A stretch of 64,000 nt of DNA. Source: a virus. Where the stretch lies: the IMG/VR virus record IMGVR_UViG_3300018080_000122, positions 1 to 64,000 of that record; one strand, given 5' to 3'. The notes under the pieces are model-generated. The model did no database searches, was not told the origin of the DNA, and saw nothing but the letters and a program-made list of their open reading frames with translations. Of this stretch, positions 26,502-50,729 are shown in pieces. How positions within the stretch are numbered: the stretch's first letter is position 1; each line of letters begins with the position of its first letter. The translations under genes were made by a program, and so were the position numbers.

Positions 26502-29174
26502 ATGAAGCTGTTATATCCCAATATGGAGGATATTGCTCACCAAGTCAGTAAAGCAGACGAGTTCTCGTTTGATATTGAATGTTTCGCCCCTGGAGAGGGC
26601 GCCGGGAAGCTGGAACACTTGGACCCATTCAAGACGCAGATAGTAGGTATATCCCTAGCCACGAAGCACAACGCCTGGTACATCCCGTTCGGTGTAGACC
26701 CCAAGACAAACAAGAAGTACGCGCCCTTCCTGGAGTTCAAGAGGATCTTCAAAGATATCTTCTTAGACAAGGACAAGCGTGGGGTTGCCTGGAGTTGCAA
26801 ATTTGACTATAAGATCTTGACATTCAACGACTTACAGATAGACAACGAGCTGGTTGACCCCATGATCGCCTCGTTCCTGTGCGACGAGAACTTCCCACAC
26901 GGACTAAAGGCCACCACGGCGCGTGAGCTTGGAATTCTACAGACTAAAATCACGGAAGTGTGGGACAACCCGTATTCACAGGAGTTCTTTGATTATGGTC
27001 GTGATGACGCCATCTACACGCTCAGACTATGGAAGGAGGTCTTCGAGCCGCGTTTGGCCGAAGAGGGAATGGAGAAGCCGTTCTGGGCTTTCGAGATGCC
27101 GTGCGTCAAGATCGCGGCCGAAATGGAAATGAACGGCATCTTGATGGACGTGGCCTACATCAATGACTACGTGATCAAAGCTACGGGGCAGTTGAAGAAG
27201 ATCGAAGAGGATCTCTTCAACATGGCCGACAAAGAGTTCAATATCAATTCTCCCAAGCAGATTGGTGCCATCATGTTTGGGGACGCAGTAACGGGCGAAC
27301 CGGGTCTGGGCCTCCCAACAAGCTGCACGTCCAAAGGAAAACCCATCGGTAAAGCTGGTATTCGCTACTGGAAAACGAATGAAGCCGTCCTGCAGAGATT
27401 GGCCCTCCTGAAAATTCCTGAAGCGGAGTTCCCCAGGCTGATCTTGAAGTACAGAAAGATCACCAAACGTATCAGCACATACTGCCGCCCCTACCTGGAT
27501 AAGTACACCAAGACCGGGGACGGCCGCATCCATTGCTCCTTCAATACGATCGGTACCGAGACAGGACGATGGTGCGTAGCTAAAGGTACCCCTGTGGAGG
27601 TTCTTAGAGACGCTAACGCGTTCCCAAAAGGGATTCCTATTGAAGACGTCAAAGCAGGGGACCTGGCCTACACCTATGATGATAATCTTCAACTGACACT
27701 TAAGAAGGTGAAGTGGGTTGGAAAAACAGGAAATAAACCTGTAGTGCGTGTTCATTGGAGAGGGCAAGGACGTAAGCACACAGGTTACGTGGATTTGACA
27801 GAAGACCACGAAGTCAGATTGACAACGGGGATCTATGTCCAAGCCAAAAATCTGGTGCCAGGTGATTCCATACTGGCTCTACACAGATCCAAAGACAAAG
27901 ACGGCTACCAAAGGATGTGGGCCACAAACGAAGGTGAAATACAAAGAGAGCATCGTTGGGTATACGAGAAAATTCATGGCGGTATCCCATGGGGAACATA
28001 CGTTCATCACGAAGATGAGAATCGGAGCAATAACAAGTTAGATAACCTAAAAGCAATGCCTGTATTCGATCACCAGTCCATGCACTCCAAAAAGGTCGCT
28101 CACGCCAGAAGTTTACCCACTAAGCTGGCGCAGAGATACGTCGGTAAGAATTACTACAAATTCAAGGAATTACAAGAATATTTCGGCTTCGTGAATCCCT
28201 ATAACCACACTGTCGTAAAGGTTGAAAGATTGCCTGGGACTGTGGATGTCTACGATATGGAGGTTGAGGACACACACAATTTCATTGCCGGGGAGTTGTG
28301 CGTTCACAACTGTTCAAGAAATCCCAATATGCAGAACCTTCCCCGTGCCTCTAAAGAGTTTTCGTTGCGACGTGCTGTGATTGCTGAAGAGGGTTTCTAT
28401 ATCCTCAGCTCGGACTTTTCCCAACTCGAAATGAGGCTTATGGCAGAGGTTTCCATGGACCCTGTCCTCATAGAGATCTATAAACGCAACGGCAAATGCG
28501 ACTGCGCGACGTGGAAGGCGTCTTACGCTAAGGACCCGGAAGAGCCGCGATGCCGTCACGTTGACGTTCACACCAGGACTTCTGAAGACGCCAAGATCTC
28601 TAGACAGGACGCCAAGCCCTTGAATTTCGGCGCTATCTATGGAATGGGTTGGAAGGCCCTGATTGCCCAGGTCTTCAAGTTCACTGGCGGGACCAGGATC
28701 ATCTCCGAGGCACAGTCCAAGCACATGCTCCGCTCTTTCTTCAACACCTACAGGAATGTGAAGCGCTACCATAACTGGGTGAATGAGCGCTGCATTGACA
28801 GAGGGTGGATCAAAACGCTCCTTGGGCGTAAGCGCCGCATTTTCCACGTGGACAAAAGCGACTGGCGTAGTAAAGGCGCGGCCTTCCGTGAGCTCACGAA
28901 TGCAAGTGTCCAAGGCAGCGCAGCAGACATTGTTATGTTAGCCCTGCGCAACGTTGCCAGAGAGCGTGATGCTCGCGCTAAAGAAGATCCACGATACGCA
29001 CAGTGCAAGTTCATCTCCATGGTGCACGACGAAATGATTATGGAAGTTCCCATCGAAATCGCCAAAGAGATGAAGGAGATGGTCGTCTATGAGATGAACA
29101 ATTGTGTGAAGCTGAAGCATGTCCCGCTCGCCAGTAACTGCGGCATTGGGCCGAGTTGGGGCGACGCTCACTGA
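26502..29174 (+). CDS. polA: DNA polymerase I family A, intein-containing
   Basis: An 890-residue precursor. The N-terminal 3'-5' exonuclease domain has FSFDIECFAP; the polymerase domain has motif A SSDFSQLEMRLMAEVS, motif B RQDAKPLNFGAIYGMG and motif C SMVHDEMIMEVP. No 5' nuclease domain is present. An intein of 246 residues interrupts the TGRW / CSRNPNMQNLP site, so the mature polymerase would have 644 residues. It is the replicative polymerase candidate of this phage. Confidence 0.93.
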   Translation: MKLLYPNMEDIAHQVSKADEFSFDIECFAPGEGAGKLEHLDPFKTQIVGISLATKHNAWYIPFGVDPKTNKKYAPFLEFKRIFKDIFLDKDKRGVAWSCKFDYKILTFNDLQIDNELVDPMIASFLCDENFPHGLKATTARELGILQTKITEVWDNPYSQEFFDYGRDDAIYTLRLWKEVFEPRLAEEGMEKPFWAFEMPCVKIAAEMEMNGILMDVAYINDYVIKATGQLKKIEEDLFNMADKEFNINSPKQIGAIMFGDAVTGEPGLGLPTSCTSKGKPIGKAGIRYWKTNEAVLQRLALLKIPEAEFPRLILKYRKITKRISTYCRPYLDKYTKTGDGRIHCSFNTIGTETGRWCVAKGTPVEVLRDANAFPKGIPIEDVKAGDLAYTYDDNLQLTLKKVKWVGKTGNKPVVRVHWRGQGRKHTGYVDLTEDHEVRLTTGIYVQAKNLVPGDSILALHRSKDKDGYQRMWATNEGEIQREHRWVYEKIHGGIPWGTYVHHEDENRSNNKLDNLKAMPVFDHQSMHSKKVAHARSLPTKLAQRYVGKNYYKFKELQEYFGFVNPYNHTVVKVERLPGTVDVYDMEVEDTHNFIAGELCVHNCSRNPNMQNLPRASKEFSLRRAVIAEEGFYILSSDFSQLEMRLMAEVSMDPVLIEIYKRNGKCDCATWKASYAKDPEEPRCRHVDVHTRTSEDAKISRQDAKPLNFGAIYGMGWKALIAQVFKFTGGTRIISEAQSKHMLRSFFNTYRNVKRYHNWVNERCIDRGWIKTLLGRKRRIFHVDKSDWRSKGAAFRELTNASVQGSAADIVMLALRNVARERDARAKEDPRYAQCKFISMVHDEMIMEVPIEIAKEMKEMVVYEMNNCVKLKHVPLASNCGIGPSWGDAH
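27573..28310 (+). other. HNH-endonuclease intein in DNA polymerase
   Basis: The intein starts with Cys (CVAKGTPVEVL) after TGRW and ends in VHN before Cys +1 (CSRNPN). Splicing blocks include DLTEDHEVRLTT (block B-like) and DVYDMEVEDTHNFIAGELCVHN (blocks F/G). An HNH_3-type endonuclease is visible: HRWVYEKIHGGIPWG, then VHHEDENRSNNKLDNL. All expected splicing residues seem intact. Confidence 0.9.
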
Positions 29175-33044: not shown

Positions 33045-34577
33045 ATGGATAAAAGCAAGAGAATACTAGCTGTTTTACGTGCTGATTTGGGTCTGCCTAC
33101 ACTTAATAAAGATAAGAGGCAGGAGTGGGCCGCCAAAAGCACGACGTCCGCAAAGCGCCTACTACAGCAGTCTGACGAGTTTGAACTCATACGGGAACGT
33201 CTGGCCATACTGCGCAACCTCTCCCATCGTGTGCACAACAAAGCAATGACTAGCATTTACTTCACCAAAAAGACTAATTATCTAAAATCCAAGAAAGGTG
33301 AATCTGGAGTAAACGCGCAGTCCCAAGCCTATAGAGATGTGCTGAACGATAATGACGATCCTTTAGCGTCACATCTCAAAGATCAAGGCGTCCCAACAGG
33401 ATTTATAACGACTACAATAAATTTTGTCTCGCAGTGTTACAACAAAACCAAGGAAAAGCAGGTCAACATGGGCGACCAATCTCTACCATCATGGAAGTAC
33501 CCCAGCCCTGTAAGTTTTGCACGAGCGCTGTGGCGTGTAGAGAAGATGGATTATGTAACTATGGACGGTACCGTCAAGAAAGTCGACGCCATACGAGTGC
33601 CTTTGTGGAGCAGAGACGCAGCTAAAGACGCCGGGAGGAAAGGCACTAGTAAATGCTCAGCGTGTATCCCCATATTCCCTCCAACCAAGAACAAAAACGG
33701 TAAGAAGATAGCCCACAACGATTATTGGTGGGCAAGGTTCAAAAAGCTGCTAGATAACGCCAGCGCACAAGGTGGCCTCAAAATAATCTGGGACAAAAAG
33801 AAGAAAAAATGGTGCGCCCTCATATCTGTGTATGAGGACAAAGCAGAGCCGTCCACAAAAAACAAAATCCTTGGAGTAGACATCGGAATCACTAACCCGG
33901 TCGTGTGTGCCGTTGGCCACGGTTGGGGAGTTAAGTTCATAGGGAGCAAGCGAGAAATGCTTAGAAAGAAAGGGTATTTCAAAAATAAAATTAGGGAGTG
34001 CGGCCGCTCCAGCAAGGGCAGAAAGTGGGTTCCTGGTAATGGTGGTCGGGGGTTCAAACGGCGCAACAAAAAAATGATGCAAATACAGAACGCGGCGGCC
34101 AGATACTGTAACACCAAGTGCCAACAATATGCCGCTAAGGTGGTCAAGATGTGCAAGAATTTGGGATGCGGCATCATAGCCATCGAGAAATTCAGAAAAT
34201 CTCCTGTTAAACAAGCCCAGGAGAAGTCCGCCAATGACAGGGGATACGTTGAGAAGAAAGTGCTAATGTGGCGCCCATATCTGATGCATATGGCCATTAT
34301 CAATGCAGCTACTCGCGCAGGTATACAAGTTATTCAGGTAGACGCTGGGTACACATCACAGAGATGCGCGCAATGCGGATGCATACTTAAGGCTAACAGG
34401 GACGTCAATAATGCCCAAGAGTTTTGTTGCCAGAAATGTGGGCATAAAGAAAATGCAGACGTCAATGCTGCCCGTAACGTGGCGCAGCAAGCCGCAGGGG
34501 AGTGGAAGGCCCCCAAAAAGATCAAAACCAAATCCAACGCAAAAAACAAAATCAAGGCCAATAAAAAGATAGGGTAA
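33045..34577 (+). CDS. compact Cas12/TnpB-type CRISPR effector (510 residues)
   Basis: RuvC motifs: ILGVDIGITNPVVCAV (D279), CGIIAIEKFRKSP (E381) and GHKENADVNAARN (D472). A zinc ribbon CAQC (441-444) / CQKC (462-465) lies between RuvC II and III as in TnpB and Cas12. Residues 1-250 would form the recognition lobe. At 510 residues it is larger than most TnpB (~400) and smaller than Cas12a-e, in the range of Cas12f, Cas12m/n or other phage-borne subtypes. It is adjacent to and co-oriented with the array; no cas1, cas2 or cas4 is near. The subtype cannot be fixed by eye. Confidence 0.88.
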   Translation: MDKSKRILAVLRADLGLPTLNKDKRQEWAAKSTTSAKRLLQQSDEFELIRERLAILRNLSHRVHNKAMTSIYFTKKTNYLKSKKGESGVNAQSQAYRDVLNDNDDPLASHLKDQGVPTGFITTTINFVSQCYNKTKEKQVNMGDQSLPSWKYPSPVSFARALWRVEKMDYVTMDGTVKKVDAIRVPLWSRDAAKDAGRKGTSKCSACIPIFPPTKNKNGKKIAHNDYWWARFKKLLDNASAQGGLKIIWDKKKKKWCALISVYEDKAEPSTKNKILGVDIGITNPVVCAVGHGWGVKFIGSKREMLRKKGYFKNKIRECGRSSKGRKWVPGNGGRGFKRRNKKMMQIQNAAARYCNTKCQQYAAKVVKMCKNLGCGIIAIEKFRKSPVKQAQEKSANDRGYVEKKVLMWRPYLMHMAIINAATRAGIQVIQVDAGYTSQRCAQCGCILKANRDVNNAQEFCCQKCGHKENADVNAARNVAQQAAGEWKAPKKIKTKSNAKNKIKANKKIG

Positions 34578-36363: not shown

Positions 36364-36732
36364 ATGTCACTCAAATGTATAGTCTGTAGCAAAAACATGG
36401 AGTTAGCCACTTTGCCCAACACTAGGCGCGGGCTCGTTCCAGTGCTGGACGGCGTAGTGTGCTACACAAGCGGGTCGTTCGGCTCCAACGTGTTTGAAGA
36501 ACTGAACATCGGCAAGTACACCAGAAAACTGCTGCAGTTTGTTATATGCGACGACTGCCTGAAGAAGAACGCGGACAACATCTTCTTCGTGAAAGAAGTG
36601 ACCACTAAGTCTGTAGTGGACTACATGACTTTAGAGGATTACTGCGCCAGGGAACAGCAGAACCTGAAAGACATGTACAGTAAGCTCGTGTTCAAATCCA
36701 CAGAGAAGAGGAACAAAGATGAAAATACGTAA
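36364..36732 (+). CDS. zinc-ribbon hypothetical protein
   Basis: The 122-residue product begins MSLKCIVCSKNMELATLPN and later has VICDDCLKKNADN, giving a CxxC / CxxC zinc site. It overlaps the first member of the FVSNSSSSSF family by 14 bases and may be co-translated with it. Function unknown. Confidence 0.6.
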   Translation: MSLKCIVCSKNMELATLPNTRRGLVPVLDGVVCYTSGSFGSNVFEELNIGKYTRKLLQFVICDDCLKKNADNIFFVKEVTTKSVVDYMTLEDYCAREQQNLKDMYSKLVFKSTEKRNKDENT

Positions 36733-37210
36733 CGGATTTGTATCTAATTCTAGCAGCTCAAGTTTTGTGGTGGGGTTTAACCCCGTCCCAGAAACCAAAG
36801 AAGAGTTGAAAGAAATGCTCTGGGGTGACCTAGAAGCCTTGGGAGCCTACGACTACGGCATCACCACCGAAAGGGCAGCTGATATTGTCTGGCAAGACTT
36901 GCAAGAGCAAGAAGGTCCTCTGACTCGTGAAGAGATCATTGCGATGATTTCACAGGACTACATGCCAGAACTAGACGGGCACAAATGGTGGAGCATCACA
37001 GATCTCAAAGAACAAGAAAAGGCCCGCGAGAAATACTACAATAAGAAGATAGAGCGCGCCACAGAATTGGCCAAAGAGATGTTCGAGAAAGCTGGCGAAG
37101 GCACCAAGTTCTTCCAGTTTCGTTACCACGATGATACTTCAAACGGAACTGTGCTCGAACATGGGGACGTCTTCAGGAACGTGCCCAGCTACAGAATAAA
37201 CGAACACTAA
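36719..37210 (+). CDS. FVSNSSSSSF family protein 1
   Basis: Starts MKIRNGFVSNSSSSSFVVGF. This N-terminus recurs almost unchanged in eight genes of this block. The remaining ~145 residues are acidic and mixed helix/strand and resemble member 3 at the start (VVGFNPVPETKEELKEML versus TVGFNGKPPNKKEILEMF). I know the N-terminal signature from many phage and bacterial hypothetical proteins, but no function is established. AGAGGAACAAAG precedes the ATG. Confidence 0.8.
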   Translation: MKIRNGFVSNSSSSSFVVGFNPVPETKEELKEMLWGDLEALGAYDYGITTERAADIVWQDLQEQEGPLTREEIIAMISQDYMPELDGHKWWSITDLKEQEKAREKYYNKKIERATELAKEMFEKAGEGTKFFQFRYHDDTSNGTVLEHGDVFRNVPSYRINEH

Positions 37211-37219
37211 GGATGAAAA

Positions 37220-37585
37220 ATGAAGATACGAAACGGTTTTGTGTCCAACTCCAGCAGTTCCAGCTTCGTGCTCATCGTCCATCCCAATGATCACAAAAAA
37301 GCTATGGAACAATTCTCAGGACATGAATCTAAGTTCCTGAATGCCTTGGTCTCCTGGCGTAAAGTCCTTGGTGAGTGGGCACGTGTGTTTTCTGGCGAGT
37401 TCAGCACGGAGAACGCGTGTATTGATATAAATAAATTATTCATGATGTGGGAGGGGGATTTCTACAAAAAGCACCCAGAATTCCAGATGTGCTTCGATGA
37501 AATGCGCACGTGCTTCCAAAATTACAGACGGTACGTGACCAAGATCGCCAAATTCAAACCGTTCTATGACGAGAAAGATTACTAG
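37220..37585 (+). CDS. FVSNSSSSSF family protein 2
   Basis: Starts MKIRNGFVSNSSSSSFVLIV. The body (121 residues in all) is helical and resembles member 8 at its start (VLIVHPNDHKKAMEQF versus ILIVTEDAHQGVLKHI). The pairing of short hydrophobic strand plus helix after the Ser run is shared. AAGGATGAAAA precedes the ATG. Confidence 0.8.
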   Translation: MKIRNGFVSNSSSSSFVLIVHPNDHKKAMEQFSGHESKFLNALVSWRKVLGEWARVFSGEFSTENACIDINKLFMMWEGDFYKKHPEFQMCFDEMRTCFQNYRRYVTKIAKFKPFYDEKDY

Positions 37586-37594
37586 GAGATAGAC

Positions 37595-37990
37595 ATGAAG
37601 ACCAGAGACGGGTTCGTATCCAATTCCAGCAGCACCAGCTTCACTGTAGGTTTCAATGGCAAACCTCCAAACAAAAAAGAAATACTAGAAATGTTTGGAG
37701 TTGAGGAGCATTCCCCACTTCGGAGTTTGGCCTGGGAGCTGTCAGACTTCTTCGCGAAACGAATCCGTGATCTGGAGAAACACGAAACGGATTCGAAAGA
37801 CGATTGGGAAAGGGAGTGCGCCGAACGCGACACGAGGCTGTTCAAAGAAGTTGGCCTGACATATCAAGGTTTCTTCAGATGTGAGCGTGATTTCGCGGAG
37901 TGCAATCAGCCCATGGCTGGGTGGGCTATTCCCTGGATAAAGAACGAAAAGCTTTATATTGTCAACCATGAACGGGGAGACATGAGATAG
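37595..37990 (+). CDS. FVSNSSSSSF family protein 3
   Basis: Starts MKTRDGFVSNSSSTSFTVGF: one Ser of the run is Thr, a conservative change that keeps a hydroxyl. The 131-residue protein is charged, with a Cys-poor helical centre and a strand-rich end (KNEKLYIVNHERGDM). It overlaps the following GTG by one base. Confidence 0.8.
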   Translation: MKTRDGFVSNSSSTSFTVGFNGKPPNKKEILEMFGVEEHSPLRSLAWELSDFFAKRIRDLEKHETDSKDDWERECAERDTRLFKEVGLTYQGFFRCERDFAECNQPMAGWAIPWIKNEKLYIVNHERGDMR

Positions 37991-38190
37991 TGCGCTACCG
38001 TGTACGATCATACAGTCATCCCAGTTATGAGGATCTCCCTCACGAAGTCATGATACTTCGCGGGGCCGAAGCCAAGGACCTGTCATTGGTTGTCCCGGTC
38101 ATGTTTGGTATGGGAGCCAAGAAAATCATAATTGAAGACGAAGATGAGTGGCTGGCCGCAGAGAAAAAGGCAGCGGAGGATTGTACATGA
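37990..38190 (+). CDS. small protein within the FVSNSSSSSF block
   Basis: GTG start; 66 residues, beginning MRYRVRSYSHPSYEDLPHEV. It lacks the shared N-terminus. Its stop overlaps the start of member 4, so it is translated in the same operon. Function unknown. Confidence 0.6.
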   Translation: MRYRVRSYSHPSYEDLPHEVMILRGAEAKDLSLVVPVMFGMGAKKIIIEDEDEWLAAEKKAAEDCT

Positions 38191-38864
38191 AAGTCAGGAA
38201 TGGTTTTGTGAGTAATTCCAGTTCTTCCAGCTTTATAGCGCAGAAGATATATCTGTCCTACATGCATCTTAAAGCCATCAGAGAGCACGGCATTCTCCTC
38301 AAAGACATCTCGCCAACCGACCCTTGGGGTTTTGGTATTGTCTATCCAGATGACTTAGAGCACGACCGCGCCTCAGAAACACCTATAAGTCAGAAGCAGC
38401 TTAGAGAGTGGCACGATCTTCGCTACGCTGATGACGCTTGGATTATTGATGAGACGGATTCCCATATTGCTGGCGCTACCATCATGGATAATTTCAGTTT
38501 CAAATGGTTCCTGCGCGCCATCGGCGTACCAGAAATAGCCTTCATGTGCTTCGAGAATGAGCATTTTGATTGTTGTCACCGTGTCGTTGAAGATATGCTG
38601 ACCAATAGATGTGGGTATAAACAACAAGCGTATCGTTACGACAAGTGGGCAGAAGTGGCCAGCGCAACCGTTTTTGTAGATCCCGAACCCGATGAAGAAG
38701 ATCTTATAGCAGCAATACGTGACGCGATCTACCCTCTTGGAAAAACAATAACAGGCATCAGGAAAGAAATCAAAAGCAAAACGGTTGCGCCATTTAGGAT
38801 TTCGATTATGACTGAAGAGTGGCTCATTAAAAGAAGGGAGGCAATAGATGGGGCTAAGTCATAA
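38187..38864 (+). CDS. FVSNSSSSSF family protein 4
   Basis: Starts MKVRNGFVSNSSSSSFIAQK; at 225 residues the longest member. After the signature comes a helical region and FMCFENEHFDCCHRVVEDML, with a few Cys/His that could bind metal. The start is fixed by the signature; an upstream extension lies inside the previous gene. Confidence 0.8.
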   Translation: MKVRNGFVSNSSSSSFIAQKIYLSYMHLKAIREHGILLKDISPTDPWGFGIVYPDDLEHDRASETPISQKQLREWHDLRYADDAWIIDETDSHIAGATIMDNFSFKWFLRAIGVPEIAFMCFENEHFDCCHRVVEDMLTNRCGYKQQAYRYDKWAEVASATVFVDPEPDEEDLIAAIRDAIYPLGKTITGIRKEIKSKTVAPFRISIMTEEWLIKRREAIDGAKS

Positions 38865-39186
38865 TATTTATGTCGGCCCGTATCTGCAAATCAAAGGCGC
38901 AGATGATTTGTGGGAAATCCTAGAAGACCTGGGCGAGCGTTTAAGCATCTTCAATCAAGAGTACGGACCCGACGACTATGATTTGGTAACTCCCAACGTG
39001 GATTGGGGAGTTGGTCGGGAGACCTACCTGGACAGGAATTGGTGTGGCGAGATGTTGATGAGCGGCGCCCGCATCGGTAAAGAGAAAGAAGAATTTGCCA
39101 GGTTTTTCTTTACAGACATCTTGAATCTTCAAAACCGATGCGGCAGTGTGATCTTGGAGTGGGGCATTCTAGGAGAGATAATCTAA
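38848..39186 (+). CDS. hypothetical protein within the FVSNSSSSSF block
   Basis: A 112-residue protein beginning MGLSHNIYVGPYLQIKGADD. I recall MxLSHNxxVGPYL-type starts from phage hypothetical proteins often found beside this family. It overlaps members 4 and 5. No signature of its own. Confidence 0.65.
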   Translation: MGLSHNIYVGPYLQIKGADDLWEILEDLGERLSIFNQEYGPDDYDLVTPNVDWGVGRETYLDRNWCGEMLMSGARIGKEKEEFARFFFTDILNLQNRCGSVILEWGILGEII

Positions 39187-39677
39187 TGAAGACCCGCCAC
39201 GGATTTGTTAGCAATTCGAGCAGCTCGTCGTACACGTGTGATCTCTGCGGTGTAGCGCGCGTCTCGTATAATGAAGGCCTAGACGGCACAGAGATGGTCT
39301 ATTGTGTTGGCTGCCACCATACCATATGCGAAGAACATCTTGCAGAACAAGATTTCGCAGGGTGGCTAGCTGAGCGCGAACACGCGCTTAAAAGAATAGG
39401 AGATGATATTACACTTGCACTTGAACAAGAAGAGTATGACTTGCTGGCGCGGCTGGCCAAGACCGCGTCTGACATAAAGCAGGACGTGAATAGCCCGCGC
39501 GATCCAAACACGGTGACGCCACAGTGGTGCCCCATATGCCAGATGGAGCGCCTACCGAATGTTCTGCTATTCCGGTACCTAACCAAAATTCAAAACACTC
39601 ACCTGGATATCATCCTTGGAGAGATCCAAGAAAGATTTTCTGACTATGAGTCTTTCATGAAGTTCATTGAAGGCTAG
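39186..39677 (+). CDS. FVSNSSSSSF family protein 5, zinc-finger type
   Basis: Starts MKTRHGFVSNSSSSSYTCDLCG. The signature runs straight into a zinc module: CDLCG, then YCVGCHHTICEEHL, and a distal WCPICQMERLPN. Members 6 and 7 share this architecture and the C-terminal helical region, so the three are tandem paralogues. Confidence 0.8.
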   Translation: MKTRHGFVSNSSSSSYTCDLCGVARVSYNEGLDGTEMVYCVGCHHTICEEHLAEQDFAGWLAEREHALKRIGDDITLALEQEEYDLLARLAKTASDIKQDVNSPRDPNTVTPQWCPICQMERLPNVLLFRYLTKIQNTHLDIILGEIQERFSDYESFMKFIEG

Positions 39678-39692
39678 ATAAAGGAGGTAAAA

Positions 39693-40187
39693 ATGAAGAT
39701 CCGGCATGGTTTTGTATCAAATTCCAGTAGTTCAAGTTTCGTGTGCGAAGTTTGCGGTCATTCAGAAGTGAGCTACGCAGACCCTGAAGACATGGTCTAC
39801 TGTGAAGATAAGGCCCACCTGTTCTGTAAAGAGCATTTGGTTGGAGTGGATTTAAACGACTGGATAGAAGAGCAGCGAAAAGAACTTCAGCGACTGAAAG
39901 AGAAGGTTGCCGAAGCGGTTGAAAATGATCTATACCATTTGGTGCAGTCTCTTACCAGGGAGATCAACCACATAAAAAATAAGATGGCAAGGGGGCGCCC
40001 AGAAAGTGAAAATGGCGACGGCCACGTCCCGTCGTCCCAGTGCCCACTATGCCAAATGACGGAATTCCATGACCGCATTCTACTCAACTATCTCATGAAG
40101 AAGCACAACACGGACAAGAAGACCATCACTGCAGCAATTCGAGGGCAATACAAAACTTACAAGGATGTTCAAGATTCTTTATCCTGA
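39693..40187 (+). CDS. FVSNSSSSSF family protein 6, zinc-finger type
   Basis: Starts MKIRHGFVSNSSSSSFVCEVCG, then YCEDKAHLFCKEHLVG, a coiled helix and QCPLCQMTEFHDR. Paralogue of members 5 and 7. AAGGAGGTAAAA lies directly before the ATG, the best ribosome site of the block. Confidence 0.8.
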   Translation: MKIRHGFVSNSSSSSFVCEVCGHSEVSYADPEDMVYCEDKAHLFCKEHLVGVDLNDWIEEQRKELQRLKEKVAEAVENDLYHLVQSLTREINHIKNKMARGRPESENGDGHVPSSQCPLCQMTEFHDRILLNYLMKKHNTDKKTITAAIRGQYKTYKDVQDSLS

Positions 40188-40202
40188 GCCAAGGAGATTT
40201 TT

Positions 40203-40787
40203 ATGAAAGTACGCTATGGTTTCGTTTCAAATTCCAGCAGTTCATCCTTTACATGTGATGTGTGCGGCCACAATGCTTCTGGGTGGGACATGGATTGTGC
40301 TGAAGCGCAGATATTCCTATGTGAAAATGGCCACTCTATTTGCTACGAGCACGGGCTCATATCAGACAGGTTCAAAAAATACATGGTCGACCTGAAAGCC
40401 GGTATTGAAAAGGCCATAAAAGATGATGATTTCGAAAGCCTGGATAAGTACCGCTCTGACTGTGTCTACATTGAGAACCTTGCAGGGGCCACCGAGACGT
40501 TAGAAGAAATTCAGGATTTCCTGGAAGATCCAACAATGGCCAATATTCCTAAAATTGGGGATTATCGTGATGAGATGCTTTATGCCGCCCCCGCAGATGT
40601 ATGCCCTATATGCGCCATAAAGAACATCGACATCCATACTATGGCCAGATACCTCCTCCTGAAAACCGGGCAGACGGCGCGAGAAGTAGCTTCAGAGATG
40701 TGCGACGCCTTCGTATCTCACAAGAAAATGCACGAGAAGCTGCGTGAAGTGGATTTACCAAAACACACCGTGGAAGTAGTTAAGTAG
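40203..40787 (+). CDS. FVSNSSSSSF family protein 7, zinc-finger type
   Basis: Starts MKVRYGFVSNSSSSSFTCDVCG, then FLCENGHSICYEHGLI, a central helical region, VCPICAIKNIDIHTMARYLL and a C-terminal helix. At 194 residues it is the longest of the three zinc-finger paralogues. Confidence 0.8.
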   Translation: MKVRYGFVSNSSSSSFTCDVCGHNASGWDMDCAEAQIFLCENGHSICYEHGLISDRFKKYMVDLKAGIEKAIKDDDFESLDKYRSDCVYIENLAGATETLEEIQDFLEDPTMANIPKIGDYRDEMLYAAPADVCPICAIKNIDIHTMARYLLLKTGQTAREVASEMCDAFVSHKKMHEKLREVDLPKHTVEVVK

Positions 40788-40801
40788 GAAGGAGACTAGC
40801 C

Positions 40802-41185
40802 GTGAACATTATTCTGGAGGGCATCAACAGAGAGTTCACCATCTGGTGGACATATCTCGATGACCGCCCAAAAGATAAGTTGGATCTCATAACTGCCATG
40901 CATGCCGTTGGCCAGATATATAGAGAGGGCGCGCGGAAGATAATGTGCACCCTATTTGACAATACTAGAGAAGTGGCATGGACCGGGTTCGCTCAATGTT
41001 CCTCTTCAGACCATTTCTCCAAACCGGCTGGGCGTAAAATAAGCCTCACCAGAGCCCTGGCCAATTCCGACATCGACAAGCCCATAAGAACCAAGATCTG
41101 GAAAGAGGTCGCGAAGACGTCCCCGAAGACACTCAGATGCAGCGTAGGCCACATACAGACGAGAGGATCCAAAAGTGAAGATTAG
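40802..41185 (+). CDS. hypothetical protein within the FVSNSSSSSF block
   Basis: GTG start with AAGGAGACTAGCC upstream. The 127-residue protein starts MNIILEGINREFTIWWTYLD and lacks the shared N-terminus. It overlaps member 8 by 11 bases. Function unknown. Confidence 0.6.
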   Translation: MNIILEGINREFTIWWTYLDDRPKDKLDLITAMHAVGQIYREGARKIMCTLFDNTREVAWTGFAQCSSSDHFSKPAGRKISLTRALANSDIDKPIRTKIWKEVAKTSPKTLRCSVGHIQTRGSKSED

Positions 41186-41570
41186 ATCAGGTTTTGTCAG
41201 CAACAGCAGCACCAGCTCTTTCATTCTGATTGTGACGGAAGACGCTCATCAAGGGGTCCTAAAGCACATACCAGAAGAGTACCATCCAATGTTAAACTAT
41301 GGATTTAGGGAGACCAAAGTCTTTGGGCGGCCCGCTAGGGTATTCACGATCCTTTCAGATCACGGTGGCAGTTACTCCAGCATGTGCTTGGAATATTGCC
41401 GCGAGGACATCAGTTTCCCTTGCCCTCCACCCAAGATTCAGCCTGAAGGCATGGACCTACCAAGACGGGCGCAAGAACCTGAGTGTGAGTACGAGCTGAA
41501 GAATGCCTACGAAGAAATCCTCAAAATAGTCGCCCCAGACGGGTTTTTTTCCAAGAGTATTGGCGATTAA
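41175..41570 (+). CDS. FVSNSSSSSF family protein 8
   Basis: GTG start; MKIRSGFVSNSSTSSFILIV. One Ser of the run is Thr. The 131-residue protein resembles member 2 after the signature. It is the last member before the promoter and the radical SAM gene. Confidence 0.8.
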   Translation: MKIRSGFVSNSSTSSFILIVTEDAHQGVLKHIPEEYHPMLNYGFRETKVFGRPARVFTILSDHGGSYSSMCLEYCREDISFPCPPPKIQPEGMDLPRRAQEPECEYELKNAYEEILKIVAPDGFFSKSIGD

Positions 41571-41573
41571 TCC

Positions 41574-41601
41574 TTGCGCTAACCAAATCTCTTGCTACGA
41601 T
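41574..41601 (+). promoter_or_regulatory. promoter TTGCGC-16-TACGAT
   Basis: TTGCGC at 41574-41579 and TACGAT at 41596-41601, 16-nt spacer; the intervening TAACCAAA equals the promoter at 23263. It gives the radical SAM gene its own transcription start. Confidence 0.75.
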
Positions 41602-41634
41602 ATTACCAGAGCAAAACAGAAAAGGAGGCAATTA

Positions 41635-42705
41635 ATGAATCGTCAGGTGATTACTGTAGAGGGATTTGGTGACGTCACCATTGCAGATTCCGAATACGCC
41701 AAGGTGATTAGGTCCGAAAACTACAACATGGGGTTCAACAAAATCACTGGATATATGGCCAGGTGGGGGAAAACTCACGATGACGATCCAGACTACGGCC
41801 CCGGACCAGAGTTGCTTGACATAGAGATTAGCGTCAATGACTGCCCCAACAATTGCCGTTTTTGTTACAAGGGCAACACGAGTGAGCCCGGCAGGCACAT
41901 GTCGCTGGAGACCTTCAAGCGCGTCATGCAAGGTATGCCCAAGACGGTGACGCAGATCGCCTTTGGCATAACAGGATTGAAGGCTAACCCAGACTTTATT
42001 CCTATCCTGAAGCATTGTAGGGATCTGGGCATCGTTCCCAATTTCACCCTGTCAGGCGTAGGTCTCGACGAAGACTTTGCGCACCAGGTAGTGCCCCTTG
42101 TTGGCGCGGTCGCTGTCAGTGCCTACGAATCCGACAAGAACGTGTGTTACAACGCGGTGGAGATGCTTAGCCGCCATATCGACCAGACGAACATCCACTT
42201 GCTCATATGTAAGGAGACCGTGCCTTTCGTGGAGGAAGTTCTGGAAGACATTTGCCACGACCAAAGGCTTGCGAAACTTAGAGCAGTGGTATTCCTCTGT
42301 CTGAAACCGAAGGGGCGGGCTGCTGGCAGGTTCCACCAACCGTCGCAGGCAGACTACGATAAGGTCATCAACTACTGCTTGGAGAGGGATATCAGGTTTG
42401 GTTTCGATTCGTGCGGTGCGCCCAAATTTGAAGAATCCGTGATTGCCTCCAAAGCGTTGAAGGCACATCAGAAGCAGCAGCTCATCCAGTGTTCGGAGCG
42501 GTGCGAATCGTTCGGCATGTTTAGTGCCTACATCAACGTTGATGGTAAGTACTATCCGTGCTCATTCTGCGAAGACGAACCGGGGTGGGAAGACGGCTTA
42601 GAATTTGACAATTTCCTGACCGACGTGTGGCTGTCCGACAAAGTAAAGGCGTGGCGCGATAAGGCTTTGTCAGCCAAACGCGAATGCGTGATGTTCGATC
42701 TGTGA
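41635..42705 (+). CDS. radical SAM enzyme with SPASM-like C-terminus
   Basis: A 356-residue protein. The cluster-binding motif CPNNCRFCYKGN (Cx3Cx2C) lies near residue 70 after DIEISVND. The barrel region follows (QIAFGITGLKANPDF, NFTLSGVGLDED). Near the C-terminus, CSERCESFGMFSAYINVDGK and YYPCSFCEDEPGW contain several Cys as in SPASM/twitch extensions that hold auxiliary Fe-S clusters. Such enzymes often modify peptides. It directly follows eight proteins with a conserved Ser-rich N-terminus, which makes them candidate substrates. AAAAGGAGG precedes the ATG. Confidence 0.85.
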   Translation: MNRQVITVEGFGDVTIADSEYAKVIRSENYNMGFNKITGYMARWGKTHDDDPDYGPGPELLDIEISVNDCPNNCRFCYKGNTSEPGRHMSLETFKRVMQGMPKTVTQIAFGITGLKANPDFIPILKHCRDLGIVPNFTLSGVGLDEDFAHQVVPLVGAVAVSAYESDKNVCYNAVEMLSRHIDQTNIHLLICKETVPFVEEVLEDICHDQRLAKLRAVVFLCLKPKGRAAGRFHQPSQADYDKVINYCLERDIRFGFDSCGAPKFEESVIASKALKAHQKQQLIQCSERCESFGMFSAYINVDGKYYPCSFCEDEPGWEDGLEFDNFLTDVWLSDKVKAWRDKALSAKRECVMFDL

Positions 42706-43564: not shown

Positions 43565-43639
43565 AGAGGCACATCAACTAGTCATACCAGCAGTAACAGC
43601 ATAGCACCAATCCATTACAGAAAATACCTAGAAAACACG

Positions 43640-43667
43640 TGCCCAAAACGCGCTCTCTTGCTATAAT
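43640..43667 (+). promoter_or_regulatory. promoter with TATAAT, weak -35
   Basis: TATAAT at 43662-43667. At 16 nt upstream lies TGCCCA (43640-43645), a weak relative of TTGCGC. The leader holds a 6-codon frame (MMCQDD) overlapping the helicase GTG. The interval 43565-43639 shows nothing else. Confidence 0.55.
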
Positions 43668-43704
43668 ACTAAGGAGCACGGGACACAAGAGACAAGGACA
43701 TGAT

Positions 43705-46551
43705 GTGCCAGGACGACTAGACTCGATGGTTTGGATACCTCGCAACGATCTTCCAGACTATTCTATAGACGCCTCCGACCTGAAACTAAAATACCAATCT
43801 GGTTATGGTGCTTCAGAACGAGTAGAAACTCTGAAGCTATACGTGCCAGAAAAACTGGTGGTGGGCATTCCGAGAGCTTACTTCTACCGTGCTGCTGGTA
43901 GCGCGGCAGGAAGTGTAAAAGACTGTAGAACGCGGGGGCGACACGTCAAGTTCCCTTTCAAGAGCACCCTCCGACCTAACCAAGTTGAAATCACGGACAC
44001 CTTTTATAAGCACCTTATAGACTCCCCTCATAATGGCGGTATCTTATGTGCACCCTGTGGCGCTGGCAAAACGGTCATGGCGTTGCATACCATTGCCAGG
44101 CTTGAGCGCTCTACCTTAGTCATTGTCCACACGTCAAGACTGCTTAATCAATGGATTGAGCGCATAGAAGAGCACATGGGAATCACAGCAGGGGTCATTA
44201 GAGAAGACGCTTTCGAGACGGACGCAGACATTGTAGTGGCAATGTTGCAAACTTTGCTGTCCAGGGGATACACAGCGAAAGACTTGAGCATGTTCGGCAC
44301 TTGTGCCGTGGACGAAACCCATCGCGTTGCAGCGCCCACGTGGTCTAGCGTTATCAAATCCCTTCCTATGAAATACCGTTTGGGTCTCACAGCGACTCCA
44401 AGACGATCAGACAAACTCGACAACGCTTTTTTCTTTCATATAGGGAAAGTGCTGGCCAAATCTGAAAAGAGAGAAATGAAGCCTCGCATTTATTTTGTCA
44501 ATACTAACGTGGGATTCAGGGTGCCCATGCTGGGAAACGGCAAAGTGAACAGAGCCCGCGCATTGAATATCCTGGCCAAGAATAAAGAGCGAAACCGTAA
44601 GATATCCAAAGAAATAGTCAAAGCTATAAAGTCGGACCGAGTGATTCTGGTATTATCTGACCGCATGGAGCTGCTGTATCATCAACGTAGACTATTAAAG
44701 GAACGGGATATCCCAGACGACAAGATAGGTTGGGTAGTAGGAGCCCACTGGGCAGGCGTTGATCCTGATGACCCATCAGAAGACCTTGAACAAGAAAGAA
44801 CCGCTAGCGGGCCTCCCAAGGCCGTCCTGCGGGCTGTCAAGAAGATAGTTCAAGAGCACGCGCCTCACGAGGAAGTCACGGTGGAAGGAAAGTGGATATT
44901 CGTCAGTGGCGCCAATACGCTTCCAATAGATGATTTGCTTGCGATACCAGGGCTCACAAAAGGTAAATACAAAGGGAACACAATAGGACTGGCAACTAAA
45001 ATAGTTGGTGGGCAGCCCAAAACAGTGAAGATCCCAGAAGCGCAGATGAAGGAAAACCAAAAGAGACAAATACTTTTGGCCACATTTGGGCTTGCCTGTG
45101 TAGATATAAATACTAATATTGTCGACCCATTGACTGGGCATAGCAATCTTCTAAGAGACCTAATAGGCACCAAACCAGAAATCGTGAGTGCCAGTAACTG
45201 CACAGGAAAATTAGTAACGGCGTCTTGTGTCGCTTATTCTGGAATAAAGGAGTGTGTAAAAGTCACTATTGCAGACAACTCGTTAGTGTTGTCAAACGAT
45301 CATTTAGTCTTCACACACAGAGGGAAAGTGCCAGCGGGGGATCTTACCACACAAGACTACATACTGCGGCCACGTATTGTAAAATGCCCCACAAGAAGCA
45401 TAGATGTAGACAAAGACGACATGTGGCTGGCGGGCATGCTATTGGGTGACGGGGCTATATCACAAATACACAAAAGGATAGCGCAGGTTATAAATGCCGA
45501 TGAAGAGGTTTTGGAACATGTTTCCAGTATTTTAAATAACAGAGGAATGCTAATCAAAAAAGTAAAGTGCAGGGACTACCACTACTGGATACGTTCTAAA
45601 AAAGGTAAGGCTGGGCGCGGAGCGAAGACATGGCTACGCAGATTTGTTGAACGTTGGGGCCTTTCAAACACAGCAAGATTTAAACATATACCTATAGAAT
45701 GGATGATGTCAAGCACCCACCTTATTAAATCTTTGCTTGGCGGGTTGTTTGCGTCGGACGGACATGTAGACAATAGGGGAACACCCGGATTCTCAAGTTC
45801 CAGCCGCAGAATGGCAGAACAAGTTCGTTTCTTGCTGTGGAGGTTGGGACTGCAATCCACTATACGTAAATCTGAAAGCACGTGGTCGATTGGGGTACCA
45901 GCCAGTAGTGCTTTGCGTCTAGACATTGATTGGCGCATAACAAGAAAAGCCAATAGACTTGACGAGCACAACCGTATGCATAACAAGTTATCTTTGGGCA
46001 CTTGGAATAAAATACCTGTACATCTGGTTTTGCGCATTAAAGAGATAGCTAAGACCAAGGGCGTCAAAATAGAAGAAATGATTAGGTTATGCAGGAAATA
46101 CGGCTACGCTGCGACTAACCTACGCCATAATCAACTAGAGGTAACTTACGAAGTAGCGTCTCTGCTAATGGAAATTCTCGGAGTAGAGGATGCTCCAGAA
46201 TTACAAAATATTAAAAATTTCCATTTTATGCCTGTGCTGAATATTGAAACGGTTGGGCCTAGACCAGTAGGAGATATGACAGTACCAGGACTGCACCGTT
46301 GGGTGACGAACGGTATGTTAATACATAACAGCGAAGGGCTCGATATCCCCGCCGTTGACGTTTTAGTATTAGCAACACCACGGTCGGACGTGGAGCAGGC
46401 TGTCGGTCGTGCTCTTAGAACACTTCCGGGTAAGAAGCAGCCGATAATAGTTGATTTTGTAGACGCTGCCTCGTATTTCCAAGCGCTAAAGGGTAAGAGG
46501 CGAAGGCAGTATCGCAAGCTGGGCTACGAAGTAGTAGAAACGAGGTCATAA
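43705..46551 (+). CDS. SF2 DNA helicase (UvsW/XPB-like), intein-containing
   Basis: GTG 43705 is chosen because AAGGA lies about nine bases upstream; ATG 43726 is an alternative. Motifs: LRPNQVEI (Q-like), GGILCAPCGAGKTVMAL (Walker A), CAVDETHRV (DExH), LGLTATPRRSD (III) and VEQAVGRALRTL (VI). An intein of 411 residues interrupts TFGLA / SEGLDIP, leaving a mature protein of about 537 residues. Such helicases handle replication-fork and recombination intermediates in phages. Confidence 0.88.
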   Translation: MPGRLDSMVWIPRNDLPDYSIDASDLKLKYQSGYGASERVETLKLYVPEKLVVGIPRAYFYRAAGSAAGSVKDCRTRGRHVKFPFKSTLRPNQVEITDTFYKHLIDSPHNGGILCAPCGAGKTVMALHTIARLERSTLVIVHTSRLLNQWIERIEEHMGITAGVIREDAFETDADIVVAMLQTLLSRGYTAKDLSMFGTCAVDETHRVAAPTWSSVIKSLPMKYRLGLTATPRRSDKLDNAFFFHIGKVLAKSEKREMKPRIYFVNTNVGFRVPMLGNGKVNRARALNILAKNKERNRKISKEIVKAIKSDRVILVLSDRMELLYHQRRLLKERDIPDDKIGWVVGAHWAGVDPDDPSEDLEQERTASGPPKAVLRAVKKIVQEHAPHEEVTVEGKWIFVSGANTLPIDDLLAIPGLTKGKYKGNTIGLATKIVGGQPKTVKIPEAQMKENQKRQILLATFGLACVDINTNIVDPLTGHSNLLRDLIGTKPEIVSASNCTGKLVTASCVAYSGIKECVKVTIADNSLVLSNDHLVFTHRGKVPAGDLTTQDYILRPRIVKCPTRSIDVDKDDMWLAGMLLGDGAISQIHKRIAQVINADEEVLEHVSSILNNRGMLIKKVKCRDYHYWIRSKKGKAGRGAKTWLRRFVERWGLSNTARFKHIPIEWMMSSTHLIKSLLGGLFASDGHVDNRGTPGFSSSSRRMAEQVRFLLWRLGLQSTIRKSESTWSIGVPASSALRLDIDWRITRKANRLDEHNRMHNKLSLGTWNKIPVHLVLRIKEIAKTKGVKIEEMIRLCRKYGYAATNLRHNQLEVTYEVASLLMEILGVEDAPELQNIKNFHFMPVLNIETVGPRPVGDMTVPGLHRWVTNGMLIHNSEGLDIPAVDVLVLATPRSDVEQAVGRALRTLPGKKQPIIVDFVDAASYFQALKGKRRRQYRKLGYEVVETRS
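45097..46329 (+). other. LAGLIDADG intein in the SF2 helicase
   Basis: Starts with Cys (CVDINTNIVDP) after TFGLA and ends MLIHN before Ser +1 (SEGLDIPAVD). Endonuclease blocks MWLAGMLLGDGAIS and SLLGGLFASDGHVD are typical dodecapeptides. Splicing blocks B (LVLSNDHLVFTH) and F/G (GDMTVPGLHRWVTNGMLIHN) are present. It sits in a conserved helicase motif, the usual place for inteins. Confidence 0.9.
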
Positions 46552-48923: not shown

Positions 48924-50729
48924 GTGCCCAGAAAACGAGATAGGAAAATAGTGCCGCCCGCCATGCAAGAGAAACGCATGGATGGTGTTGCATCTTCGCG
49001 GCGGCACGAAACCCGTCTCAGCAAGAAGTTGGGTAAAAACGCCCATCGTCAGAGAGCCTCCGGGGCGCGGCAGGGTAAAAAAGGGGATATTGACTGGTGG
49101 GGCGACGGCGAAGATTGGTGGCGCTCCGTCAAGGTGGAAAATAAAACCACCGTGAACAAGGACAAGAAGTCATTTTCTATCAAGAAAGCACATCTAGAAA
49201 AGATAAGCAAAGAAGCAGCGGTGCATGACATGCTTCCTATGATGGCTTTTGAGATTCCTGGAATGACTACGCTAACACCACGAGATTGGGCGTTGGTGCC
49301 CATCCATAGTGAGGATGCTATGAAGAAAGTGCTTGCAGGACTCTCTAAAAATAGGAGACACGAGCCGCCGCCCCCGAAAGTTCGCCACAAGAAAATGCCT
49401 GGGTCGGCAGATTTTTTCAACAAGACGCTCTACGATTTCTTGAAAAAGCGAGCAGTGTACGGGACCAGGCAGCGTGAAGATGGTCTCCTTCACGTATCGG
49501 AGATGTATGACTTCTGCCCCAGAAGAGAAGTGTTCAAAATCTCTTTCAAAGGAGGCAGAAAAGATCCTCCAGATCCAGGCCTGCAAATGATCTTCGACCA
49601 TGGCACCATGACCCATTATTGGTATCAGAATGCTTATATGGGGCCAGCTGGACACCTGTGGGGCACATGGAAATGCGTTGCGTGCGGAGACACCAGGGAG
49701 GGTGTGATGCCGTCTAAACCCTGCCAGTGTTCTATTGACGAATGCGGGAGCGAGTGCACGCCCGACCCAGAAATTGGATGCCGCATGTGCGTGGCTGAGG
49801 GCATGCTCATATCCACAGAGACGGGGCCTGAGCCGATAGAGGACATTATCGCGGGCGTAAAAGTGTGGACGCACGAGGGGCGCTTACGTGAAGTCACAGG
49901 GGTATGGAAAGAACACAGCAGGCGGGAGACAGTGTCCATCACTGTTTACGACTGTATATATCCAGTGCTGCTCACAAAAGATCACCCGGTTCTCATCGAA
50001 GTTGATGGAGCCTTTGAGGATATGGACGCAGGCGATGTCAGAGTAGGCGACACAGCGTTCTTCTTGAATAACGGAAAACCTTCCCGCACTGAAGTCGTTT
50101 CTGTAGCGGAAGGTCCTCCCCAAGCAGTGTGGAACATGGAAGTGGCCCAAGATGCCTCATTCTATGCGGGCGAGATTTTGGTGGGTAATTGCACCACTTG
50201 GGGTAGATGGGAATTCGTAGAGCCTAGAGTATTCTTCAAGAAGTACGGCGTCATAGGATCATGCGACGGTGTGCTTATGAATCTCCCAGGAGATAAGAAG
50301 AAAAAGCGTGTTTGGGAAATAAAGACGATACACATGGAGGCCTTCAAGCGCTTATCATTTCCATACACTAAACATATAGCGCAAGCTAGTCTGTATGGTA
50401 TAGGGCTGGGCGTGGAAAACTTGATGATGACTTATATCCCAAAAGGCGACATGGGTGAACCGCCCAAGGCTTTCCGGCTTGAGACAGATGAAGGTTTGGC
50501 CTACGAAGCGCTAGGCAAAGCTGAAAAATTCTGGAACGCCATCAAGAGAGGATTGTTACCACCAAGATTGTGCAATGCCAGGACAGCTCCCAAGGCAATC
50601 AAGTGCCCCCACAAGAAGATCTGTTTTACCAACACAGCCGAAGCCGACGTCAAGAAGATCTTACAAGAGAAGAAGGAAGAGGGAGAGCTGGAATGGGTGA
50701 AATCATCATTGGAGTTGATCCAGGGATAA
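48924..50729 (+). CDS. two-domain nuclease: Hjc-like plus Cas4/RecB-like, with mini-intein
   Basis: GTG start directly after recA. Residues ~40-110 look like a PD-(D/E)xK resolvase-type domain (RASGARQGKKGDID, VKVENKTTVNKDKKSFSI). From ~160 a second nuclease resembles Cas4/RecB: MYDFCPRREVF, VIGSCDGVLM, VWEIKTIHMEAF and a C-terminal Cys set (LCNARTAPKAIKCPHKKICF) suited to a 4Fe-4S cluster. A 134-residue mini-intein is inserted at GCRM / CTTWGRW. Mature length about 467. Probably an end-processing exonuclease acting with RecA. Confidence 0.75.
   Translation: MPRKRDRKIVPPAMQEKRMDGVASSRRHETRLSKKLGKNAHRQRASGARQGKKGDIDWWGDGEDWWRSVKVENKTTVNKDKKSFSIKKAHLEKISKEAAVHDMLPMMAFEIPGMTTLTPRDWALVPIHSEDAMKKVLAGLSKNRRHEPPPPKVRHKKMPGSADFFNKTLYDFLKKRAVYGTRQREDGLLHVSEMYDFCPRREVFKISFKGGRKDPPDPGLQMIFDHGTMTHYWYQNAYMGPAGHLWGTWKCVACGDTREGVMPSKPCQCSIDECGSECTPDPEIGCRMCVAEGMLISTETGPEPIEDIIAGVKVWTHEGRLREVTGVWKEHSRRETVSITVYDCIYPVLLTKDHPVLIEVDGAFEDMDAGDVRVGDTAFFLNNGKPSRTEVVSVAEGPPQAVWNMEVAQDASFYAGEILVGNCTTWGRWEFVEPRVFFKKYGVIGSCDGVLMNLPGDKKKKRVWEIKTIHMEAFKRLSFPYTKHIAQASLYGIGLGVENLMMTYIPKGDMGEPPKAFRLETDEGLAYEALGKAEKFWNAIKRGLLPPRLCNARTAPKAIKCPHKKICFTNTAEADVKKILQEKKEEGELEWVKSSLELIQG
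49788..50189 (+). other. mini-intein without endonuclease
   Basis: Starts CVAEGMLISTETGPEPIED and ends YAGEILVGN before Cys +1 (CTTWGRW). Block B is present (LLTKDHPVLIE). At 134 residues it has only the splicing domain. The penultimate residue is Gly instead of the usual His, which may slow splicing or require another residue to assist. Confidence 0.85.

Follow-up and report, generated by a model that had tools for sequence, protein, structure and literature searches.

In its simplest reading, the N-terminal sequence MKxRxGFVSNSSSSSF is the substrate tag of a dedicated radical S-adenosylmethionine (SAM)/SPASM-Twitch enzyme of the PHROG 7293 family, and the sequences compared here make this reading probable. 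Both elements occur in a virus from IMG/VR (record IMGVR_UViG_3300018080_000122), of which positions 1 to 64,000 were analysed (hereafter the window, 64,000 nucleotides). Eight plus-strand genes within 36719-41570 begin with MKxRxGFVSNSS[ST][ST]S[FY], and the next gene encodes the enzyme. Across genomes, the link between tag and enzyme is about as strong as genome evidence can give.

Tagged proteins in the window and beyond

The array and the enzyme gene comprise the following features (aa, amino acids):

36719 to 37210, plus strand: tag protein 1, 163 aa, 'VGF', phrog_7397 type (E 5.6e-14); body cluster 4, 25 members
37220 to 37585, plus strand: tag protein 2, 121 aa, 'LIV'; tag match; 47% identical to the 41175 protein over 58 residues
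37595 to 37990, plus strand: tag protein 3, 131 aa, 'VGF'; tag match; phrog_7397 E 2.8e-6
38187 to 38864, plus strand: tag protein 4, 225 aa, long form of the 'MDNF' body family; tag match; body cluster 2, 29 members in 29 loci
39186 to 39677, plus strand: tag protein 5, 163 aa, zinc-finger-like; body cluster 3; Tyr at tag position 16
39693 to 40187, plus strand: tag protein 6, 164 aa, zinc-finger-like; body cluster 3; tag match
40203 to 40787, plus strand: tag protein 7, 194 aa, zinc-finger-like; body cluster 3; tag match
41175 to 41570, plus strand: tag protein 8, 131 aa, GTG start, 'LIV'; tag match; likeness to the protein at 37220
41635 to 42705, plus strand: radical SAM/SPASM enzyme, 356 aa, candidate tag maturase; phrog_7293 E 4e-66, Pfam, alignment and AlphaFold2 (AF2) model

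An earlier note on this DNA had described eight proteins with a nearly invariant start of about 16 residues. All eight start codons (36719, 37220, 37595, 38187, 39186, 39693, 40203 and, as GTG, 41175) proved right, and each is accompanied by a purine-rich Shine-Dalgarno-like stretch. The tag pattern was recovered as well: a degenerate DNA pattern matched seven of the eight genes in the window, while none was expected from shuffled sequence, and the gene missed, with Tyr at position 16, was found by a wider pattern. On the entire virus record of 115,571 bases the wider pattern gave eight matches, all of them those of the window, and its backward control none. Untagged open reading frames (ORFs) interrupt the array at three places, about 37990-38190, 38848-39186 and 40802-41185. 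The RING-type matches of tag protein 5 were weak and below cut-off.

Between the eight genes the tags are 85% identical in amino acids and 65% in nucleotides, compared to 61% expected under random synonymous codons, with 237 synonymous and 65 non-synonymous codon differences. Since the codons are close to random synonymous choice, selection acts on the protein, and a cause at the DNA level, such as gene conversion or shared regulatory DNA, is ruled out. Gaps of 9 and 15 bases in the window had suggested a polyprotein or stop read-through; this was rejected, as 125 gene pairs had no in-frame excess and many -4/-1 overlaps.

Searches with the tag DNA pattern retrieved at least 119 stretches from IMG/VR and 60 from GTDB genomes, among them those of clostridia, spirochaetes and Asgard archaea. 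In the position table of 333 distinct proteins the conservation of K2, R4, G6, F7, V8 and N10 is partly circular, because the search pattern fixes these residues; profiles of the bodies only are a less biased gauge. Homologues of tagged bodies found with such profiles carry the tag nearly always, and real variants among them read GFISNSS, [SNC]FVSNSS, GFVANSS, GFVGNSS or G[YW]VSNSS. N10-S11-S12 is almost invariant in this set, with one example of Arg at position 12.

The 333 proteins fall into 99 body clusters. Among the 14 largest body families, profile comparison related two of 91 pairs and left 89 unrelated, so that the tag stands on at least 12 mutually unrelated body families, in line with the unrelated bodies of the earlier note. 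Its 'LIV' and 'VGF' pairs are indeed alike at the N-terminal end, but the likeness stops after 58 and 34 residues, respectively. Tagged proteins measure 121-225 aa in the window and up to 811 aa elsewhere. Up to nine different ones occur in a single locus (L108), and their genes are packed in operons with gaps of mostly -11 to +21 bases.

In the AF2 model of tag protein 1 the body is folded (predicted local distance difference test, pLDDT, 90 overall), while residues 1-10 reach about 49; the tag of this protein thus looks like a mobile tail that runs into the first beta-strand. The modelled body had no structure match in the PDB, and a Pfam scan of ten body types gave nothing above cut-off. 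The tag could instead be the conserved first strand of one old, diverged superfamily, kept by folding and sharing a cassette with the radical SAM gene. The two remotely related family pairs and the direct passage of tag into strand would agree with this, but the 89 pairs without profile similarity, the low model confidence over the first ten residues and the near-invariance of the tag on bodies just 24-38% identical make it very unlikely. A separate observation concerns phage RB43, where the body of a tag protein (L076:373-837) matches phrog_132 (head-tail adaptor, E 3e-10); its gene sits among small hypothetical genes.

The enzyme and its co-occurrence with the tag

Translation of the enzyme most likely starts at ATG 41635, after AAAGGAGG, rather than at the upstream TTG 41560; a GGAGG lies upstream of this ATG. 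The gene had been described in the earlier note as a radical SAM enzyme with a SPASM-like end, of a class that often modifies peptides, and Pfam, fold and domains bear this out. Its CX3CX2C motif at residues 70/74/77 (C70, C74 and C77) is invariant in 47 aligned sequences, as are the further cysteines 260, 290, 309 and 351. Pfam Radical_SAM scored 25.5 bits (E 1.7e-5), slightly under its cut-off of 29.5, and SPASM 23.4 bits, above its cut-off of 21.5. The motif together with the radical SAM domain and fold places the enzyme in the radical SAM superfamily, and its C-terminal cysteines have the SPASM/Twitch character. They are fewer than the seven of a full SPASM domain, and a single, Twitch-like auxiliary cluster is likely.

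The AF2 model of the enzyme has a mean pLDDT of 95.4. Its closest folds (Foldseek, VIA-align 2) are SuiB (Z 23.2, 301 residues, 3.5 A), SkfB, CteB, anSME and PqqE, and judged by this predicted fold and by its domains the enzyme belongs to the peptide-modifying SPASM/Twitch class. In an NCBIfam scan the peptide-maturase matches were weak and far below cut-offs, and no named maturase was reached. The N-terminal 45 residues form five strands in the model, where the VIA alignment to SuiB begins at residue 15. A conserved N-terminal block, YNxxFNKxxGxFxRWGKTxxDDP, is a candidate for the part that binds the tag.

A phrog_7293 match was present in 40 of 50 long tag-bearing IMG/VR records (best E per record 1.3e-66 or lower) and in none of 14 control genomes. 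Fifty further control records, 25 of them of at least 75 kb, were picked by the unrelated PhoH motif; the radical SAM enzyme was found in 0/50 (0/25 of the longer ones) and the tag in 0/50. For the reverse direction, IMG/VR was searched with the enzyme DNA motif RWGKTxxDDP, as a single-protein query gave no matches and the alignment was too diverse. Eighteen records outside the tag set were recovered; 16 truly encode the enzyme, and 14 of these 16 have tags, compared to 0/2 of the false motif matches. Fisher's test gave p of about 1e-12 each for the forward and the reverse association. Together with 54/60 tag-bearing GTDB genomes (see below), these counts support the idea of the earlier note, which a co-occurrence no higher than chance would have refuted.

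Position adds to this picture. A tag lies within 2.5 kb of the enzyme in 20/40 records, where 1.9 were expected by random placement; tag positions were taken solely from the retrieved stretches, which makes some of the distances maximum values, and a small number of coordinates are accurate to within a few hundred bases. In 97 of 98 loci with both in one stretch, the tag nearest to the enzyme is on the same strand, at a median distance of 166-386 bases. Of 50,697 phage records, 172 contain the enzyme, and two tag proteins were detected in 175 and 174 of them; the organisms tallied for each are almost the same. The isolate matches belong essentially to one Straboviridae group (RB16, RB43, KP15 and their kin) and count as about two events, not 172. 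Vibrio phage D479, found via the enzyme alone, has five tags within 11 kb of it. The enzyme copy of a 180,500-base record (L190, RB43 size) appears in two pieces with stops, while the copies of records with RB16 and KP15 size are open.

These data also bear on the possibility of the tag proteins acting as partners or regulators of the enzyme, i.e. as docking subunits which guide it to some other substrate while the tag is bound but left unchanged. In the gene neighbourhood substrate and partner look alike, and the folded bodies differ from most precursors of ribosomally synthesised and post-translationally modified peptides (RiPPs). However, as many as nine different tagged proteins per locus are more easily understood as substrates than as regulators, the closest enzyme folds are those of peptide maturases, and N10-S11-S12 hardly varies among body homologues. 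We regard a partner role as unlikely.

Chromosomal relatives and known systems

In GTDB genomes tag and enzyme share one stretch (up to 8 kb) in 43 of 60 cases, and in 11 further genomes the enzyme is encoded elsewhere, in four of these just past the stretch end (54/60 in total). Chromosomes rarely carry the tag (1/397 in a family-level genome search). In the enzyme tree, 26 chromosomal enzymes form a clade with support 100/100; 24 of the 26 are paired with GFVTN tags, whereas viral enzymes are paired with GFVSN. The identity of tag residue 9 (Ser or Thr) requires two changes on this tree, compared to 20.5 with shuffled labels.

A STAND/NACHT-like protein is encoded in 18 chromosomal loci, mostly of 680-1315 aa, with the shorter ones cut by stretch ends. 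PADLOC Avs2 models matched all six chromosomal STAND neighbours that were scanned (best E 7e-12 to 9e-48), and several of the Avs2-like proteins have a trypsin-like N-terminus. In 16 chromosomal loci the tag protein is preceded by a small protein that has no tag (about 130 aa). One chromosomal cassette holds an Avs2-like STAND NTPase, the untagged protein of ~130 aa, a GFVTNSSST tag protein and the radical SAM enzyme (L131, L148, L164, L165, L177, L183 and others). From its gene content it looks like an undescribed antiviral system. A second chromosomal form (L136, L151, L152, L170, L178) combines the enzyme with a large tagged protein and a protein of roughly 300 aa with hydrophobic segments. 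The large tagged proteins show an HExxH stretch in L136 and L137, and a hydrophobic segment directly after the tag in L151 and L178. No STAND gene was seen in the window. The system that the earlier note took to be phage-encoded is thus carried by phages, but there is also a chromosomal clade, largely beside Avs2-like STAND NTPases. Body cluster 0 includes tag proteins from phages as well as from chromosomes, and together with the STAND neighbourhood this would place the system in phage-host conflict.

The RiPP maturases SuiB, SkfB, CteB, PqqE and mycofactocin MftC resemble the enzyme in fold, CX3CX2C motif, auxiliary Fe-S cysteines and an adjoining conserved short peptide sequence. Here, however, the peptide forms the start of numerous folded proteins from unrelated families, in place of one small precursor. 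RiPP precursors comprise a short leader/core peptide that undergoes proteolysis; the tagged products are longer, the one modelled is folded, and no protease or exporter family recurred beside tag genes in the virus loci. The likeness to anSME is of another kind, as this SPASM radical SAM enzyme also modifies a full-size protein at Cys or Ser (VIA-align Z about 18). It acts on a CxPxR-type motif in sulfatases, in contrast to the Ser-rich N-terminal tag on many families described here.

In phage T4, several unrelated small internal proteins share an N-terminal capsid targeting sequence, which the prohead protease cleaves after an acidic motif. The tag could likewise serve localisation or packaging into the virion, with the radical SAM enzyme as a neighbour with an unrelated job. 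Proteins meant for packaging or targeting would be expected to look like this: many different small proteins with one N-terminal signal, encoded in operons whose genes overlap or are separated by short gaps. Yet the tag differs in sequence from the T4 signal, has a dedicated enzyme partner, and is Ser-rich without a protease motif or any conserved Glu or Asp (333 distinct proteins). The association with the enzyme is moreover reciprocal and extends to chromosomes where the partners are genes for STAND NTPases instead of virion proteins, so that we consider packaging quite unlikely. A type IV prepilin signal, which combines a G/F junction with Glu at +5 and a hydrophobic helix, does not fit either: the tag has G6-F7, but the residues after it are rich in Ser, and Glu is missing at +5.

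The neighbours of the chromosomal pair are of the Avs2 type by sequence, as judged by the PADLOC matches, but to our knowledge described Avs2 systems include no radical SAM enzyme or tag protein. For the vWA-MoxR/FtsH ternary conflict systems of prokaryotes, Kaur et al. (2020, PMC7159879) predicted that a radical SAM enzyme modifies a peptide effector. The passage on those systems describes other partners and no such tag, in contrast to the phage arrays and Avs2-like STAND proteins found here.

Several other features of the virus lie outside the array. ARAGORN placed a tRNA with anticodon CUA (amber-reading, named tRNA-Pyl) at 2547-2618 on the plus strand, although TAG is the stop codon of 10 among the 29 larger ORFs checked. 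Intein/Hint domains occur in DNA polymerase A, a DEAD/ResIII helicase and one further gene (26502-29174, 43639-46551, 48924-50729), and a TnpB/Cas12f1-like gene (IS605 OrfB) lies within the virus at 33045-34577 on the plus strand.

A proposed tag modification in phage-host conflict

Some observations weigh against the tag as a substrate of the enzyme. A phrog_7293 match is missing from ten of the 50 long virus records with tags, and in six of these ten there is no match to radical SAM proteins of any kind; incomplete contigs may or may not be the cause. In T4-like phages tag and enzyme are not adjacent but about 19-24 kb apart. No separate RiPP recognition element (RRE), a PqqD-like domain that binds the leader, was recognised in the window enzyme, where Pfam gave only Radical_SAM and SPASM. 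Finally, the Ser/Thr split at residue 9 nearly coincides with the viral/chromosomal split and is essentially one old event, not repeated coevolution.

Substrate status, modified residue, chemistry and biological role of the tag are what we infer from these data. We propose that the phage produces a panel of globular proteins, small and mutually unrelated, each with a mobile N-terminal tag. The radical SAM enzyme, usually from the same operon or region, would recognise the tag, with K2, R4 and the aromatic residue 7 as candidate recognition residues, and would modify it most likely within F7-V8-[ST]9-N10-S11-S12, around the near-invariant Asn-Ser-Ser core. A three-residue cyclophane at F7-V8-[ST]9 is only one option for the chemistry, since rare variants have Ala or Gly at position 9 and Leu at position 7. 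Through the modified end all members of the panel would gain a single property in common; most likely they would bind to, or act on, one and the same host target in takeover or counter-defence. Bacteria with the sister pair, often beside Avs2-like STAND NTPases, suggest that the modified tag may matter to both parties in phage-host conflict. A more far-reaching version, which we offer tentatively and rather doubt, is virus-wide tagging, in which one enzyme rebuilds the identical tag on whole panels as a common handle for host targets or for Avs2-like NTPases; the modified tag would then be common to phages and bacterial STAND systems as opponents in an arms race.

No description of the tag or of its pairing with a radical SAM enzyme was found in the open-licence literature, and the libraries searched held no matching family. 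If the tag is a substrate, many large phages of bacteria and archaea would possess an undescribed post-translational modification system. It reaches cultivated T4-like phages of Escherichia and Klebsiella as well as contigs assigned to Asgard archaea and spirochaetes, and the isolates RB16 and KP15 make modification of the tag directly testable. If true, this would offer an initial entry point to a large class of small phage proteins without an assigned function, point to new peptide chemistry and tie phage accessory proteins to STAND-type immunity.

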